This document shows positions 8,582 to 12,588 of a stretch of DNA of 64,000 nt, in pieces. Source of the DNA: Muribaculaceae bacterium (GTDB taxonomy: Bacteria; Bacteroidota; Bacteroidia; Bacteroidales; Muribaculaceae). The stretch is from the NCBI GenBank assembly GCA_022510405.1, contig JAFLTP010000003.1, positions 1-64,000 of the forward strand, in the 5' to 3' direction. Numbering within the stretch: the first letter of the stretch is position 1; each line of letters begins with the position of its first letter. Position numbers and translations under genes: made by a program. The notes under the pieces were generated by a model. That model did no database searches. It saw only the letters and a list, made by a program, of their open reading frames with translations, and was not told the origin of the DNA.

Positions 8582-9730
8582 CTAATTTATGTTAAAATAA
8601 TGGTTAAACATAGTTTGTTTTACTTTCAGTGTAATCCTGTTTACCGACTCCCGTTTCTGCTCGTCACTCATATCGGCATAGATCTGGGTTGTCTCGACAT
8701 TCTTGTGACCCAACATGTGTTGGACTGTATAAACGGGTGTTCCCGCTTCCACCTGTAATGTACCGAATGTATGTCGGGTACAATGGAAAGAGATATGTTT
8801 GGTTATACCAGCTGCTTTCAGCCATCTTCTCAGGGGAGCCTGGGTCATATAGTCTTCAAAACCGATGAAGACCTTGCCTGTTCCTCTCGGACCTATAAGC
8901 TCCATCGCTTCATCACTGATAGGATTGTTCACAAGATCCTTTGTCTTCTGCATCCTCAGCGTGACATACATTCCTCCGTTTCCATATGGCTGTATATTCT
9001 CCCATGTAAGGTTCTTGATGTCGCTCTTCCTTAATCCCGTCAGGCATGCAAAAAGGAATGCTTTCCTTAAAACAGGTATCTCGCATGGAGTGTCAGCCAA
9101 TCTTATCAGTTCCTCTTGGGAAAGATGCTCCTTCATGGTGGGTATGGTGTCGATCCTGTCAAGGAAGCCGTTGGGGTTCTCTCTTATCTTACGTTCCTTA
9201 TAAGCTGTATGCAAACATGCCCGGAAAGTTGACCAGTATCCGGCTACCGAATTGATATGGAGTTTCTGCTCCTTGTGACGGTATTGCGGGGCGTTCAAGA
9301 GGTATTCCATAAACTTACGGCACAAGTCCACGTTCACCTCACCGAAGCGGCATTTGCCGTTTGTGAATCTCTCGAAGTGCTTATAGACGTGTTCCCACTT
9401 GATATTTTTCTTCAAGGCAAGGTTCTTGAAGTATAAAAGGAAGTCTCCCTTCTCTTTCTCCTTGTCGAAGAAGTCATAGCGTTCATTGACGATGCTTTCA
9501 TATCTCCGGCACCTCAATGCCTCGGCTTTCTCCGTCATTCGCTCGTTATATTCCTTTTCCCTACCGTTCTTCGGTTTGGAAAAGATGTATATGCCGAGCG
9601 ATTCATGACGCATTACTTTCATTGTGCTCTCGTCTCGATAGCCGGGATAGTAGTCAAGATAGAAGGACAGCATCGTGCCGTTCTTTATCTTCCGAGTCCG
9701 GAGGTTAACTGTCTTACAGATATTACTCAT
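8582..9730 (-). CDS. Tyrosine recombinase (integrase) of the element
   Basis: 382 residues, typical for Bacteroides element integrases. There is an N-terminal SAM-like core-binding domain (about 90-190) and a catalytic domain with Arg234 (TGLRKSDI), His316-x-x-Arg319 (HCTRHTFG), His342 (GHKNVETTQI) and nucleophile Tyr351. All key residues are present, so it should be active. The N-terminal arm-binding domain of about 60 residues is the ARM-type usual in this family. It lies near the right end of the element, followed by a second HTH gene. No tRNA gene lies near, so the target is probably protein-coding or intergenic DNA. Confidence 0.93.
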   Translation of the reverse strand: MSNICKTVNLRTRKIKNGTMLSFYLDYYPGYRDESTMKVMRHESLGIYIFSKPKNGREKEYNERMTEKAEALRCRRYESIVNERYDFFDKEKEKGDFLLYFKNLALKKNIKWEHVYKHFERFTNGKCRFGEVNVDLCRKFMEYLLNAPQYRHKEQKLHINSVAGYWSTFRACLHTAYKERKIRENPNGFLDRIDTIPTMKEHLSQEELIRLADTPCEIPVLRKAFLFACLTGLRKSDIKNLTWENIQPYGNGGMYVTLRMQKTKDLVNNPISDEAMELIGPRGTGKVFIGFEDYMTQAPLRRWLKAAGITKHISFHCTRHTFGTLQVEAGTPVYTVQHMLGHKNVETTQIYADMSDEQKRESVNRITLKVKQTMFNHYFNIN

Positions 9731-9785
9731 ATTTTAAGTGTTTTTAATTGTTATTTCGTGATGCAAAGAAAAATGATTATTCAAT

Positions 9786-9800
9786 GGTGTCAAGGTTAAC
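9786..9800 (-). promoter_or_regulatory. Shared upstream motif GTTAACCTTGACACC
   Basis: Second copy of the motif at 1222-1236, here 56 bp upstream of the integrase ATG, 14 of 15 bases identical. Confidence 0.45.
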
Positions 9801-9882
9801 CAACAATAATCACTGATTAATCTTATTATAATTGGGAATAGTGAAAAGATATAGAAGGTAGGGGAATAAAAAAGGATAATTA

Positions 9883-10839
9883 TTACATACCCAAGGCTGC
9901 TCTTTCAGCCATCACCCTCTCCACATCTTCTCGGCTTAGCAGATTTCTTACTCCGACTTTTACCTTCCTTATCCCTTTTACATTGACAATATGGTGCAGG
10001 TTAGCTTTTGTCAGGCCGTATTTTTCTGCCGTTTCCTCTACGGTGCAATATCTATCATCTGCTATCAGGTTGGGTCTCCTTAATTCTTCAAGATGGCTCT
10101 TTGAATAATATGCAATACCATATTCTTTCTTGGTAGGTATGTTGTGCCGGTAAGCGTATGCCCTGATAGCGGTGGCTCCCATATTGAATTGTTCCTCCAC
10201 TTCTAACGTGGTGAGCCAATCCGTTATGTTGGAGTAATCGGTCTGTATCCCGAAATGCTCATCTATATCATGTTTGTTGAAATATAGTTTACCAGCTATT
10301 TTGCAGACACGGATATGGTATTTCTTGGCACAGGTATAAAGCCATCCCTGACCTATCTTGAACCTTGACATTACATCCTCTCCGGTATAATATTCTATAG
10401 GGTCGGTTAATTCGGAGGAGAAGGATTTTGCAGAAATGGATTTGCCCTTTGGTTGCAATTGGCTCTTTGGCTTGGATTCCGGTTTTCTTATAACAGGGAT
10501 AACTCTTTCATAAGGATTAGATGACAGGAGTTTTTCAATATCTGCCTTACGGATCAGCGACATCCGGTTGCTAAGTCTCGATGCTTGGAGTTTCCCTTGT
10601 GCAACGAGCTTATAAATATATTGACGTGTGCAACCCATCAGGAGGGCTGCCTTTGAAAAAGTAAAATACTCCTGTTGTCGGAGGTCTATAAGTGGTTCGA
10701 CCGCTTTGATGAAATCATTGCGTCTTTTCTTCCTGGCAATTTTGGCACTTTCGGCACAAGACTCGGAACAATAGTGTTGGTTTCCGCTCCGGATTGTAAA
10801 TGTGTTGCCGCAGATTTCACATTTTCTTTGGATTCTCAT
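9883..10839 (-). CDS. Zinc-ribbon/multi-HTH DNA-binding protein of the element
   Basis: The ATG at 10837-10839 (MRIQRKCEICGNTF) is preferred over one 66 bp upstream because it starts directly at the zinc ribbon; it gives 318 residues. A CxxC-x(12)-CxxxC zinc ribbon (about 7-27) is followed by an excisionase-type HTH (FTFSKAALLMGCTRQYIYKL) and two more HTH-like segments (about 145-185 and 205-300). Such proteins are regularly encoded beside integrases on Bacteroides integrative elements and probably bind the element ends or regulate excision. Repeated palindromic sites just upstream (10911-11005) are candidate targets. Confidence 0.8.
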   Translation of the reverse strand: MRIQRKCEICGNTFTIRSGNQHYCSESCAESAKIARKKRRNDFIKAVEPLIDLRQQEYFTFSKAALLMGCTRQYIYKLVAQGKLQASRLSNRMSLIRKADIEKLLSSNPYERVIPVIRKPESKPKSQLQPKGKSISAKSFSSELTDPIEYYTGEDVMSRFKIGQGWLYTCAKKYHIRVCKIAGKLYFNKHDIDEHFGIQTDYSNITDWLTTLEVEEQFNMGATAIRAYAYRHNIPTKKEYGIAYYSKSHLEELRRPNLIADDRYCTVEETAEKYGLTKANLHHIVNVKGIRKVKVGVRNLLSREDVERVMAERAALGM

Positions 10840-10910
10840 GATAGCATATTTTTGATTGAAAATTCGATTTCCGGTGTATTCCTGCCGAAAGTCAATAGGA
10901 GTCAATCCTC

Positions 10911-11190: not shown

Positions 11191-11619
11191 CTAAATACAA
11201 TTAGCGAAAGCATAAGATCCTATAGATCTAAGATTAATAGGTAAATTGATTGTAGTTAAAGAAGAACAACCATTAAAACAGTAATTCCCTATTTCAGTAA
11301 TACCCTTCATCCCCAAAATCTCATAAAGAGATCCGCATCCGGAAAAGGCATTACTGCCTAATGAAGAAATGCAATCAGGAATGACAACAGATGTTAAGGC
11401 TCCACAATTATTAAATGCACCATTAATAGATACTATTGAAAACGTTCGCTCCTTATATACTACTGTCTCCGGTATAATAATATCACCGGAATAAGGAATA
11501 TCTCCTGCTACTATTGTGGCAGTCATATTCGAAAGGTTAGTTTCGTAATAGAAACCATCCACTTCAAAATCATAAGCCGAAGCTGAGAGGAAGGATATTA
11601 TTATACCTCCCAAAATCAT
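11191..11619 (-). pseudogene. BspA-like leucine-rich-repeat surface protein, truncated
   Basis: 142 codons encode a hydrophobic signal-like start (MILGGIIISFLSASA), a short beta region, then about three TpLRR/BspA repeats (SVVIPDCISSLGSNAFSGCG, TINLPINLRSIGSYAFANC). BspA family proteins normally have many more repeats and a C-terminal anchor; this one stops right after AFANC, at about 11,195, next to the integrase end of the element. In frame upstream lies ATTAAACAGAAATTTAAA (encoding IKQKFK), which looks like the basic start of the signal peptide with its ATG changed to ATT. It is a remnant, probably cut by the element's insertion. Confidence 0.7.
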
Positions 11620-11638: not shown

Positions 11639-11999
11639 TTAATGATTATTTGAATTATATTGAATTTCTTTGATTAGTTGAGAACAAATCTCTGAAAGAA
11701 TATCATTGGGAATCATATTCCAAGGTACCTCAATAATATTTTTATTCTCCTTACATGGTATAATGTTCTTGATCTTAACAGTTAAAGAAGTAAGCCATTT
11801 TCCATGAGTACATATTCTTATCCCGGATTTGTTAGCAAAAAATAGTAGTGTCTTTTAATCCGATTTGATCTGGTTTAGGAATAAGCAAGAATAATTCATC
11901 TCGATCTAAAAATGAATATATCTTAAATGGAGATAAAATTTTTTTATAGGAGATAAATTCACCAGAAGGGAGTTGTAACAAAAATTCAGCTTTTAACAT
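11639..11999 (-). pseudogene. Frameshifted small protein upstream of the LRR remnant
   Basis: ATG at 11997-11999 opens MLKAEFLLQLPSGEFISYKK and runs 55 codons to TAA 11832-11834. The coding pattern then continues in another frame (LLFFANKSGIRICTHGKW) to TAA 11639-11641, which overlaps the LRR gene's lost start. A one-base slip near 11,840 would join them into about 120 residues. No family is recognised. With the LRR gene it formed a two-gene transcript downstream of the structured RNA. Confidence 0.5.
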
Positions 12000-12045
12000 T
12001 ATTATAATGGGTCTCTGACTCCCAAGAGATCCTCGGATTATAAAT

Positions 12046-12360
12046 AAAAAAGCGTAGGAGCCTGAACCTTGGTGCTCGTCCTACAACTTGAGGCTCTGGT
12101 ATTGCCCGATATGGTTGAACGAGCAACATGCAGAAGCCTACGCTGAATATGAATAAACATCAAGATATGACGTTCCCACATCATATCAAAACGAATATAA
12201 CATATCCGCTTGGCATCTACCGTTGCCACATCCTTGACCATATCAAAGAAATTTACCAGATTTCAAGTTGTCAAGAAGATGCGTCTTGGTAAATACGCCT
12301 TTATGTCTTGCAGACCCTCCCGCTTATTCCCTTGACCGGGCTTCTGCGTTTCGGTCTGCA
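12046..12360 (-). ncRNA. Candidate structured non-coding RNA, about 300 nt
   Basis: On the minus strand a -7 box (12359-12366) is followed by about 300 nt with several separate perfect helices: TGCAGACC/GGTCTGCA (12353-12360 with 12309-12316), CCCG/CGGG (12337-12340 with 12319-12322), ATTTACCA/TGGTAAAT (12287-12294 with 12251-12258), GGCA/TGCC (12224-12227 with 12212-12215), GATATGA/TCATATC (12181-12187 with 12164-12170), and a nested 3' hairpin AGCGTAGG/CCTACGCT (12137-12144 with 12051-12058) containing TGCTCGT/ACGAGCA and CAAC/GTTG. A TTTTTTATTT run follows, as in a terminator. A 67-codon frame inside has no coding look. It lacks signatures of tmRNA, RNase P RNA or SRP RNA. The family is not recognised. 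Confidence 0.5.
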
Positions 12361-12366
12361 AATGTA
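12359..12366 (-). promoter_or_regulatory. -7 box of the candidate RNA gene
   Basis: Minus strand TACATTTG fits TAnnTTTG, placing the transcript start near 12,352-12,355. An AT-rich stretch lies upstream. Bases 12,367-12,570 show no gene. Confidence 0.45.
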
Positions 12367-12588
12367 AAATTAATCATTTTGTAAGAAATATTATATCAGG
12401 CATATAATAAAATTTCATTCAATTATCTCCGATAAGATTTCTTAATTGGAGTTTTTACATATTTGATAGCGGCTAACAAGCATCGTTGTCTATAGTCTTC
12501 TTTGAGGTCGGCATTTTGAGGTCGATAACTTTTCTTCGAACCGCTACCCGGGCTATCTTTTCACAAAGCAAAAGATGCCCGACGTACG

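Follow-up and report, generated by a model that had tools for sequence, protein, structure and literature searches.

Transcription-attenuating riboswitches and terminator/antiterminator leaders occupy the 5′ end of a transcript whose gene lies on their own strand, and combine crossing folds with a U-run, features that recur in the RNA element described here. Unlike known attenuators, however, this element is ~320 nt long, makes a long-range loop pairing into its predicted terminator, is followed by an extra hairpin before the start codon, and stands ahead of dozens of unrelated genes. 6S RNA, which has a rod-like fold, resembles it in the rod that the leader can form; unlike 6S RNA, which is one stand-alone gene, the element is a leader in multiple copies, and it has no Rfam match. 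Among structured RNAs of Bacteroidetes, the portions of a 2010 survey drawn on here describe Bacteroidales-1, Bacteroides-1, and other motifs (PMC2864571); those with Rfam numbers should be present in the library that we searched, to which the leader has no match at cut-offs. The covered portion of a study of human-microbiome candidate structured RNAs likewise includes some upstream of Bacteroidetes genes (PMC8040213), and its examples with a stated length measure 38–132 bp and have other gene contexts, the two features by which alone we set them apart from the leader. Limited literature searches (titles and the openings of abstracts) contained no description of the element in what they covered, and none of the terms searched for occurs in the main text of PMC11109978; the novelty of the element is judged from Rfam and from these limited searches.

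The element was noticed in a 64,000-nt stretch of a Muribaculaceae genome (contig JAFLTP010000003.1, positions 1 to 64,000; hereafter the window), where a first-pass annotation made from the letters had proposed a structured RNA gene of about 300 nt on the minus strand. We find that this segment is a real structured RNA and a multi-copy 5′ leader. Comparison of its sequences further suggests, with a probability that we put at about 0.62, that the leader acts in cis as a 5′ transcription attenuator ahead of diverse accessory genes. If so, much of the optional gene content of Muribaculaceae and their relatives would share a point of control. These bacteria are abundant in the gut, and the literature covered says little about their regulatory RNAs.

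A structured RNA and its relatives in Bacteroidales

The minus strand of 12046–12366 folds at −127 kcal/mol, compared with a mean of −83 for shuffled sequences (z −9.6; 0 of 100 shuffles equal it), and the plus strand of the same segment gives z −5.1. The claim that its structure lies far above chance is borne out by this value and by the pairing found in its homologues. The segment matches the family profile over model positions 1–322 of 323, and the leader itself appears intact in the window; its proposed extent stands as far as the RNA segment is concerned, although the functional unit does not end at 12046 but extends as far as the start codon (11999).

Searching the whole window at the Rfam gathering threshold returned a tRNA-Arg alone, the same tRNA that ARAGORN gives, and seven loci with homologues likewise yielded only tRNA at cut-off. 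With E up to 10, three sub-threshold snoRNA models appeared (E 0.38 to 3.5), which are taken as chance matches. For the segment there was no covariance-model match at cut-off to tmRNA, RNase P, SRP, 6S, or other Rfam families. The first-pass annotation was therefore right, by both Rfam models and ARAGORN, that tmRNA, RNase P, and SRP are absent, and its RNA of ~300 nt does lie outside Rfam release 15. It had named an Rfam search, a blastn search for homologues, and a look for compensatory changes as ways of checking the proposal; the segment has no Rfam match at cut-offs, of 198 same-family genomes searched by blastn, 135 match, and compensatory changes are present in the helices of the homologues.

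These blastn matches, obtained with a 421-base query, fall in 25 of 30 genera, and the copy numbers that the search gives are lower bounds, since few candidates were scored per genome. A sequence-only profile (R1), built from 38 sequences, matched 38 of 61 relatives, corresponding to 35 of 37 members of the genus (own genome included) and, among 24 further genomes of the order, to 3, of which one matched weakly; congeners have up to 16 copies per genome. In this genome six copies reach E<1e-10, and two more matches fall at E 0.01–0.03, one of the two lying antisense to a copy; the copies are highly divergent, scoring from 45 to 217 bits. The five copies other than that studied here (C5, C1 with two, C40, and C34; L102–L106) head different ORFs; judged by eye, the ORF of L103 resembles a lipoprotein and that of L104 a BspA-type repeat protein.

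At greater distances, 28 of 247 genomes of the order matched, some by short weak matches alone. In the class, 4 of 197 genomes matched: the own genome, two others from its order, and a fourth through a partial match only (8e-4). In the phylum, 2 of 148 matched, namely the own genome and the one with that partial match. Because the class and phylum searches add only members of the own order and one partial match, the leader family is, as far as seen, essentially restricted to Bacteroidales. Titles among the matches listed (80 of 117 stretches) name Muribaculaceae, Muribaculum, Duncaniella, Paramuribaculum, Barnesiella, Porphyromonadaceae, Prevotellaceae, and others. The motif was also seen in contigs titled Lachnospiraceae, Eubacteriales, or Pseudoflavonifractor (L163, L164, L167, L175, and L196); L167 and L175 equal contigs of genome G076 in length, and that genome is placed in the family of the window, so at least that non-Bacteroidales title looks wrong. 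In all, 197 distinct copies were collected, 154 of them full length, and 144 non-redundant full-length copies were aligned. This collection under-represents distant forms, since the profiles and the pattern used to build it came from close relatives.

Position ahead of diverse genes

The leader precedes same-strand genes with great regularity. In a first set comprising 40 fetched regions and the window, every next ORF (41 of 41) shared the strand of the RNA, as called by a mechanical ORF caller that began 6 of the 41 inside the RNA, and upstream ORFs were divided between 18 plus and 22 minus. Across all loci, 155 of 162 next ORFs shared that strand and 7 were on the opposite one, against an upstream control of 95 plus and 74 minus, which places the element as a 5′ leader ahead of a gene on its own strand. 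The distance varies little: measured past the profile end just after the U-run, 125 of 162 ORFs start at 30–80 nt, and 103 of 162 at 39–57 nt.

Among copies with a full 5′ end, 80 of 84 carry TAnnTTTG or TAnnTTCG there, and TT (81–85%) stands ~23 bases before this box, a combination that we take to be the Bacteroides −7/−33 promoter type. The TAnnTTTG box of the first-pass annotation does exist in the window as a perfect copy, TACATTTG, at 12359–12366 (minus strand), but it lies ~6 bases downstream of the conserved family position, 12365–12372 (minus strand), which reads TAATTTTA and is one letter off TAnnTTTG. The terminal T run noted alongside it is real, with a T-rich tail (at least five T in some 8 of the last 20 letters, as a raw count) in 99 of 99 distinct copies. 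In the 80 nt past the U-run, TAnnTTTG, the sole box type scored there, was found in 2 of 97 copies, compared with 2.7 expected by shuffling; as this is no commoner than chance, the gene is left without an evident promoter of its own. The idea of a stand-alone gene fares poorly against this arrangement, in which a gene on the same strand follows at nearly fixed spacing and the interval shows no evident promoter. We also considered a leader-peptide attenuator and rejected it, as a conserved short ORF was not found in the leader: the frame of an invariant AUG in the RNA is not conserved (distances modulo 3 of 29, 29, and 19 among 77), and another AUG, opening ~22 codons, occurs in only 17 of 38 copies.

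To describe the genes served, we defined first proteins as those same-strand ORFs (of 155) that start within 130 nt. The 141 first proteins form 92 clusters, 72 of them singletons. BspA-type LRR_5 domains occur in 19 of 141 (Pfam), Ig-like domains, peptidase C10, DUF3575, PD-(D/E)XK, and SNF2 have two to four occurrences each, and PADLOC helicase models match two members. A single-function regulon was discarded as an explanation, there being no dominant class beyond LRR_5 among the 25 commonest of 66 Pfam and of 60 PADLOC families. By a crude hydrophobicity rule, 81 of 141 first proteins look exported, compared with 107 of 334 control ORFs. One cluster of five is Cys-rich, and the three members examined resemble TIGR04117, a radical-SAM target family, below cut-off. 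Small Cys-rich peptides that are headed by the leader and resemble this family of Cys-Xaa-Xaa-Xaa repeat targets, again below cut-off, were seen at L084:498–779, L126:6519–6827, and L128:7133–7396. On a tree of the RNAs with 106 of 144 leaves labelled, the Cys-rich cluster requires 2 changes for 5 members, and the 13 BspA-headed copies require 9, compared with a mean of 12.4 and a minimum of 10 in shuffles. These counts suggest that BspA-headed copies are somewhat clustered on the tree, yet that leaders have been paired with BspA many times over.

In the window, the RNA had been described as lying upstream of a decayed BspA-type operon, and we confirm this position, both ORFs being shortened. 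The first (11832–11999, minus strand; 55 aa) starts 46 nt after the RNA and is cut short; coding-like sequence continues past its stop in another frame, and it has no NCBIfam match. The second (11191–11619, minus strand; 142 aa) is a truncated BspA-type leucine-rich-repeat gene that clusters with BspA family c0; its NCBIfam leucine-rich-repeat matches fall below cut-off, and most of its listed relatives have several hundred residues. The RNA stands to the BspA gene as leader to gene, and BspA is only one among many families found downstream of leaders. Next to the decayed operon, at 8582–10905, lie a tyrosine recombinase and a protein whose DNA-binding domain is of the excisionase type.

Crossing helices and a hairpin before the start codon

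The helices conserved in the leader fall into two sets that cross: the alpha rod (fold R) and, crossing it, the 3′ terminator hairpin together with the pairing PK1 (fold T). In the window, where all features below are on the minus strand, the rod joins a 5′ strand at 12237–12270 to a 3′ strand at 12084–12115 that lies inside the P9 loop, and its helices covary strongly. In 48 aligned copies, 97.5% of the 2099 cells of the rod structure are standard pairs, compared with 31–43% for slid versions of the rod and 31–45% for slid controls of both structures. In a screen of all column pairs in the same 48 copies, 18 of the top 20 pairs attained at least 81% standard pairing. With 144 copies, 11 pairs (E<0.05) went beyond all 20 null alignments simulated along the tree, and all 11 lie in the alpha rod, with 94–100% standard pairs. 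Cells changed on both sides number 287 in the 44-pair rod, compared with 80 in shuffles; further pair types are not above shuffles (56 vs 59.1; 471 of 500 as high). Support does not extend to the whole rod: there is scarcely any variation at its top (GGUAGAUGCC with GGCUUCUGC) and little at its base. The rod top and the candidate helix P4alt (UUCUUGAC/GUCAAGAA) are nearly always pairable, and with cells changed on both sides numbering 3 and 2, respectively, they are almost without compensatory change and so were not used as evidence. An extension of the rod base (rodbase2) proved to be in the wrong register, with 51.6% pairing, and was dropped.

The terminator structure of fold T consists of standard pairs in 95.8% of 1419 cells (48 aligned copies), and its set of P2, PK1, P8, and P9 holds 40 cells changed on both sides, compared with 10.8 in shuffles (0 of 500 as high). 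P2, a 5′ hairpin (12334–12356; GACCG/CGGUC) with GCAGAAGCC in its loop, is paired in 563 of 676 cells of the 144 copies, with 48 cells changed on both sides and a best pair of E 0.019 against the tree null. PK1 joins this loop (5′ strand GCAGAAGCC, 12339–12347) to the P8–P9 junction strand (3′ strand GGCUUCUGC, 12130–12138), for which the nearly invariant GGUAGAUGCC is an alternative partner. PK1 covaries, with 1200 of 1261 cells paired and 44 changed on both sides in the 144 copies, and its best pair against the tree null has E 0.0063 when only the 97 pairs tested are counted, rising to 3.55 when every column pair is. Its variants are themselves paired: GCAGAAGCC/GGCUUCUGC in 43 copies, GCAGAGGCC/GGCCUCUGC in 13, GCAGAGACC/GGUCUCUGC in 4, and GUCGAAGCC/GGCUUCGAC in 2, and in four copies one base is missing from both strands. 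Length changes in PK1 affect both strands in 9 of 144 copies, the 5′ strand alone in 25, and the 3′ strand alone in 10 (Fisher p 0.017); such co-change of two strands is modest overall (P9, p 0.023; P8, p 0.11).

The 3′ hairpin has an outer stem, P8, and an inner stem, P9, both mostly invariant. P8 pairs GCGUAGG (12137–12143) with CCUACGC, which runs into the T run at the terminator end (12046–12058, from pairing and the window letters); 963 of 983 cells are paired (98.0%), 23 are changed on both sides, and the best pair reaches E 0.066 against the tree null. P9 (UUGCUCGUUC, 12117–12126, with GGACGAGCAC, 12072–12081) is paired in 1409 of 1418 cells (99.4%) and has 28 cells changed on both sides, no single pair being significant against the tree null. 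Together with the T-rich tail, P8 and P9 are predicted to form an intrinsic-terminator-like stem and U-run. Elsewhere in the RNA, the nearly invariant hairpin P3 (12281–12298; GCGU/ACGC) is paired in 694 of 717 cells with 0 changes on both sides, its 5′ strand being an alternative partner of the 3′ ACGC, and the variable hairpin P7 (12145–12207) has a base stem paired in 908 of 1003 cells of the 144 copies. Pairing is weak in P1, an outer 5′ stem: 80.6% in the 48 copies, a value equaled by 20 of 300 shuffles, and 85.2% in the 144. Highly conserved stretches include CAAC.GUAGAUG and GGGCAAU. A G-rich stretch (window 12309–12334, RNA region 38–62) carries at least three GGG runs in at least 104 of 144 copies and could be a quadruplex or a protein site.

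Between the U-run and the start codon, a short hairpin recurs, variable in its stem and capped by a GNGAGYC-type loop. In the window it reads UCUCU[UGGGAGUC]AGAGA (12012–12029, minus strand) and stands 12 nt before the ATG at 11999. A loose GNGAGYC-type core is present in 97 of 132 spacers, and stems of at least 5 Watson–Crick pairs in 27 of 132, compared with a mean of 8.9 and a maximum of 15 in 60 rounds with the flanks shuffled; of 56 hairpins with at least 4 pairs, 38 end ~10–16 nt before the start codon. GNGAGYC, a motif chosen after inspection of the spacers, occurs in 31 of 97 leaders with spacers of at least 45 nt and at 4 of 439 starts of other ORFs, and hairpins of at least 5 pairs in 16 of 97 leaders and at 3 of 439 control starts. 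Taken as a whole, the spacers are no more stably folded than their shuffled versions (mean −7.2 vs −6.9 kcal/mol). Since the stems were picked by search, their variation is suggestive and does not amount to a covariation test.

A proposed switch and its alternatives

Individual molecules keep both sets of helices: at least 18 of 21 alpha pairs and at least 9 of 10 P9 pairs can form in the same molecule in 130 of 144 copies. The alpha 3′ strand is connected to P9 by linkers of 1 nt (135 of 144 copies) and 2 nt (134 of 144), which would have to bridge ~21 base pairs if both helices formed; on this steric argument, the rod and P9 are probably mutually exclusive unless the rod is sharply bent. Mean constrained energies over 48 copies are −131.3 for fold R and −118.3 for fold T, with ~−14.5 kcal/mol for the isolated PK1 duplex, which puts the two folds near balance in a crude sum that charges nothing for the pseudoknot and allows the PK1 strands no competing pairs. 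Helices that are probably exclusive yet kept together, with near-equal energies in that sum, lead us to propose an attenuator in which the 5′ hairpin is the sensor.

In this attenuator, fold R would pair alpha 12270–12237 with 12115–12084, blocking the terminator so that polymerase reads through. In fold T, P8 and P9 would form the terminator, with the junction strand bound to the 5′ hairpin loop through PK1, and polymerase would halt at the U-run, leaving the gene off. The likely sensor is hairpin P2 with the conserved G-rich stretch behind it: a free P2 loop would favor fold T through PK1, and a loop occupied by a ligand, protein, or RNA would let fold R prevail. The GNGAGYC hairpin, which would be present only in read-through mRNA, probably adds a control of translation or stability. 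Since the genes served share no pathway, a metabolite is the less likely input, and a cell-state signal or a protein the more likely. A broader reading, which we hold tentatively and at somewhat less than even odds, is that this large Bacteroidales RNA class is one general, pseudoknot-tuned bistable switch of ~320 nt through which one signal toggles an optional gene repertoire. Gut commensals would then toggle at transcription termination an accessory repertoire of surface leucine-rich-repeat proteins, Cys-rich peptides resembling radical-SAM targets, lipoproteins, and a few restriction- or defence-like proteins. As the alignment specifies the exact helices and two states, the switch is directly testable.

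Crossing helices are common in large RNAs, and the same helices might instead belong to one compact pseudoknotted RNA in which alpha, P9, P8, and PK1 form together and whose bound partner acts either on the mRNA or on RNA polymerase; the RNA might then be a processive antitermination element. That 107 of 144 molecules meet all four helix thresholds is in keeping with such a structure, but the 1-nt and 2-nt linkers are too short for the span of the rod unless it bends sharply, and we regard a single compact fold as unlikely. A metabolite riboswitch in the strict sense would be a special case of the attenuator, in which the 5′ domain or the core formed a pocket for a small molecule; the highly conserved CAAC.GUAGAUG and GGGCAAU and the terminator-like end would suit it, whereas downstream genes without a common pathway (92 clusters, 72 singletons) make it rather improbable.

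The cis position bears on two further explanations. Were the terminated ~320-nt product a stand-alone, trans-acting small RNA and the gene incidental, its own promoter box, terminator-like end, and very stable fold would be expected features; the 155 of 162 same-strand genes at near-constant distance, the lack of an evident second promoter, and the hairpin that recurs past the terminator leave this account little credence, although trans-acting and cis-leader roles could coexist. The many copies per genome ahead of unrelated genes, and the 9 changes needed for 13 BspA-headed members, might also be produced by a mobile or repeat element that deposits promoter and leader before genes, and the first-pass annotation had raised the RNA part of a repeat-type mobile unit. 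The comparison does not support this suggestion: the copies head genes and, within the genome, are very divergent (45 to 217 bits), blastn of phage and plasmid collections with two queries gave no match, IMG/VR contributed two contigs only, and the alignments show no conserved flanks. Near-identical copies or terminal repeats of the kind expected of a mobile element were not found among the copies, the single inverted-repeat pair in 11950–12450 including the RNA's own PK1 pairing, and we consider deposition by such an element very improbable. The attenuator thus remains our preferred reading of the leader.

Several copies are of interest in their own right. Extra insertions in the 5′ domain occur in L048, L049, L051, and L069, either in the PK1 loop (L069) or behind it. 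L069 (2361–2676 and 7889–8241) and L119 (6502–6744 and 17444–17708) each carry two leaders within ~5–11 kb, on opposite strands. The copies of L118, L122, L123, and L124 lie so near the contig end that the following gene is cut off; repeats in the genes behind leaders may break assemblies. The two IMG/VR contigs, L264 and L265, carry full-length copies.
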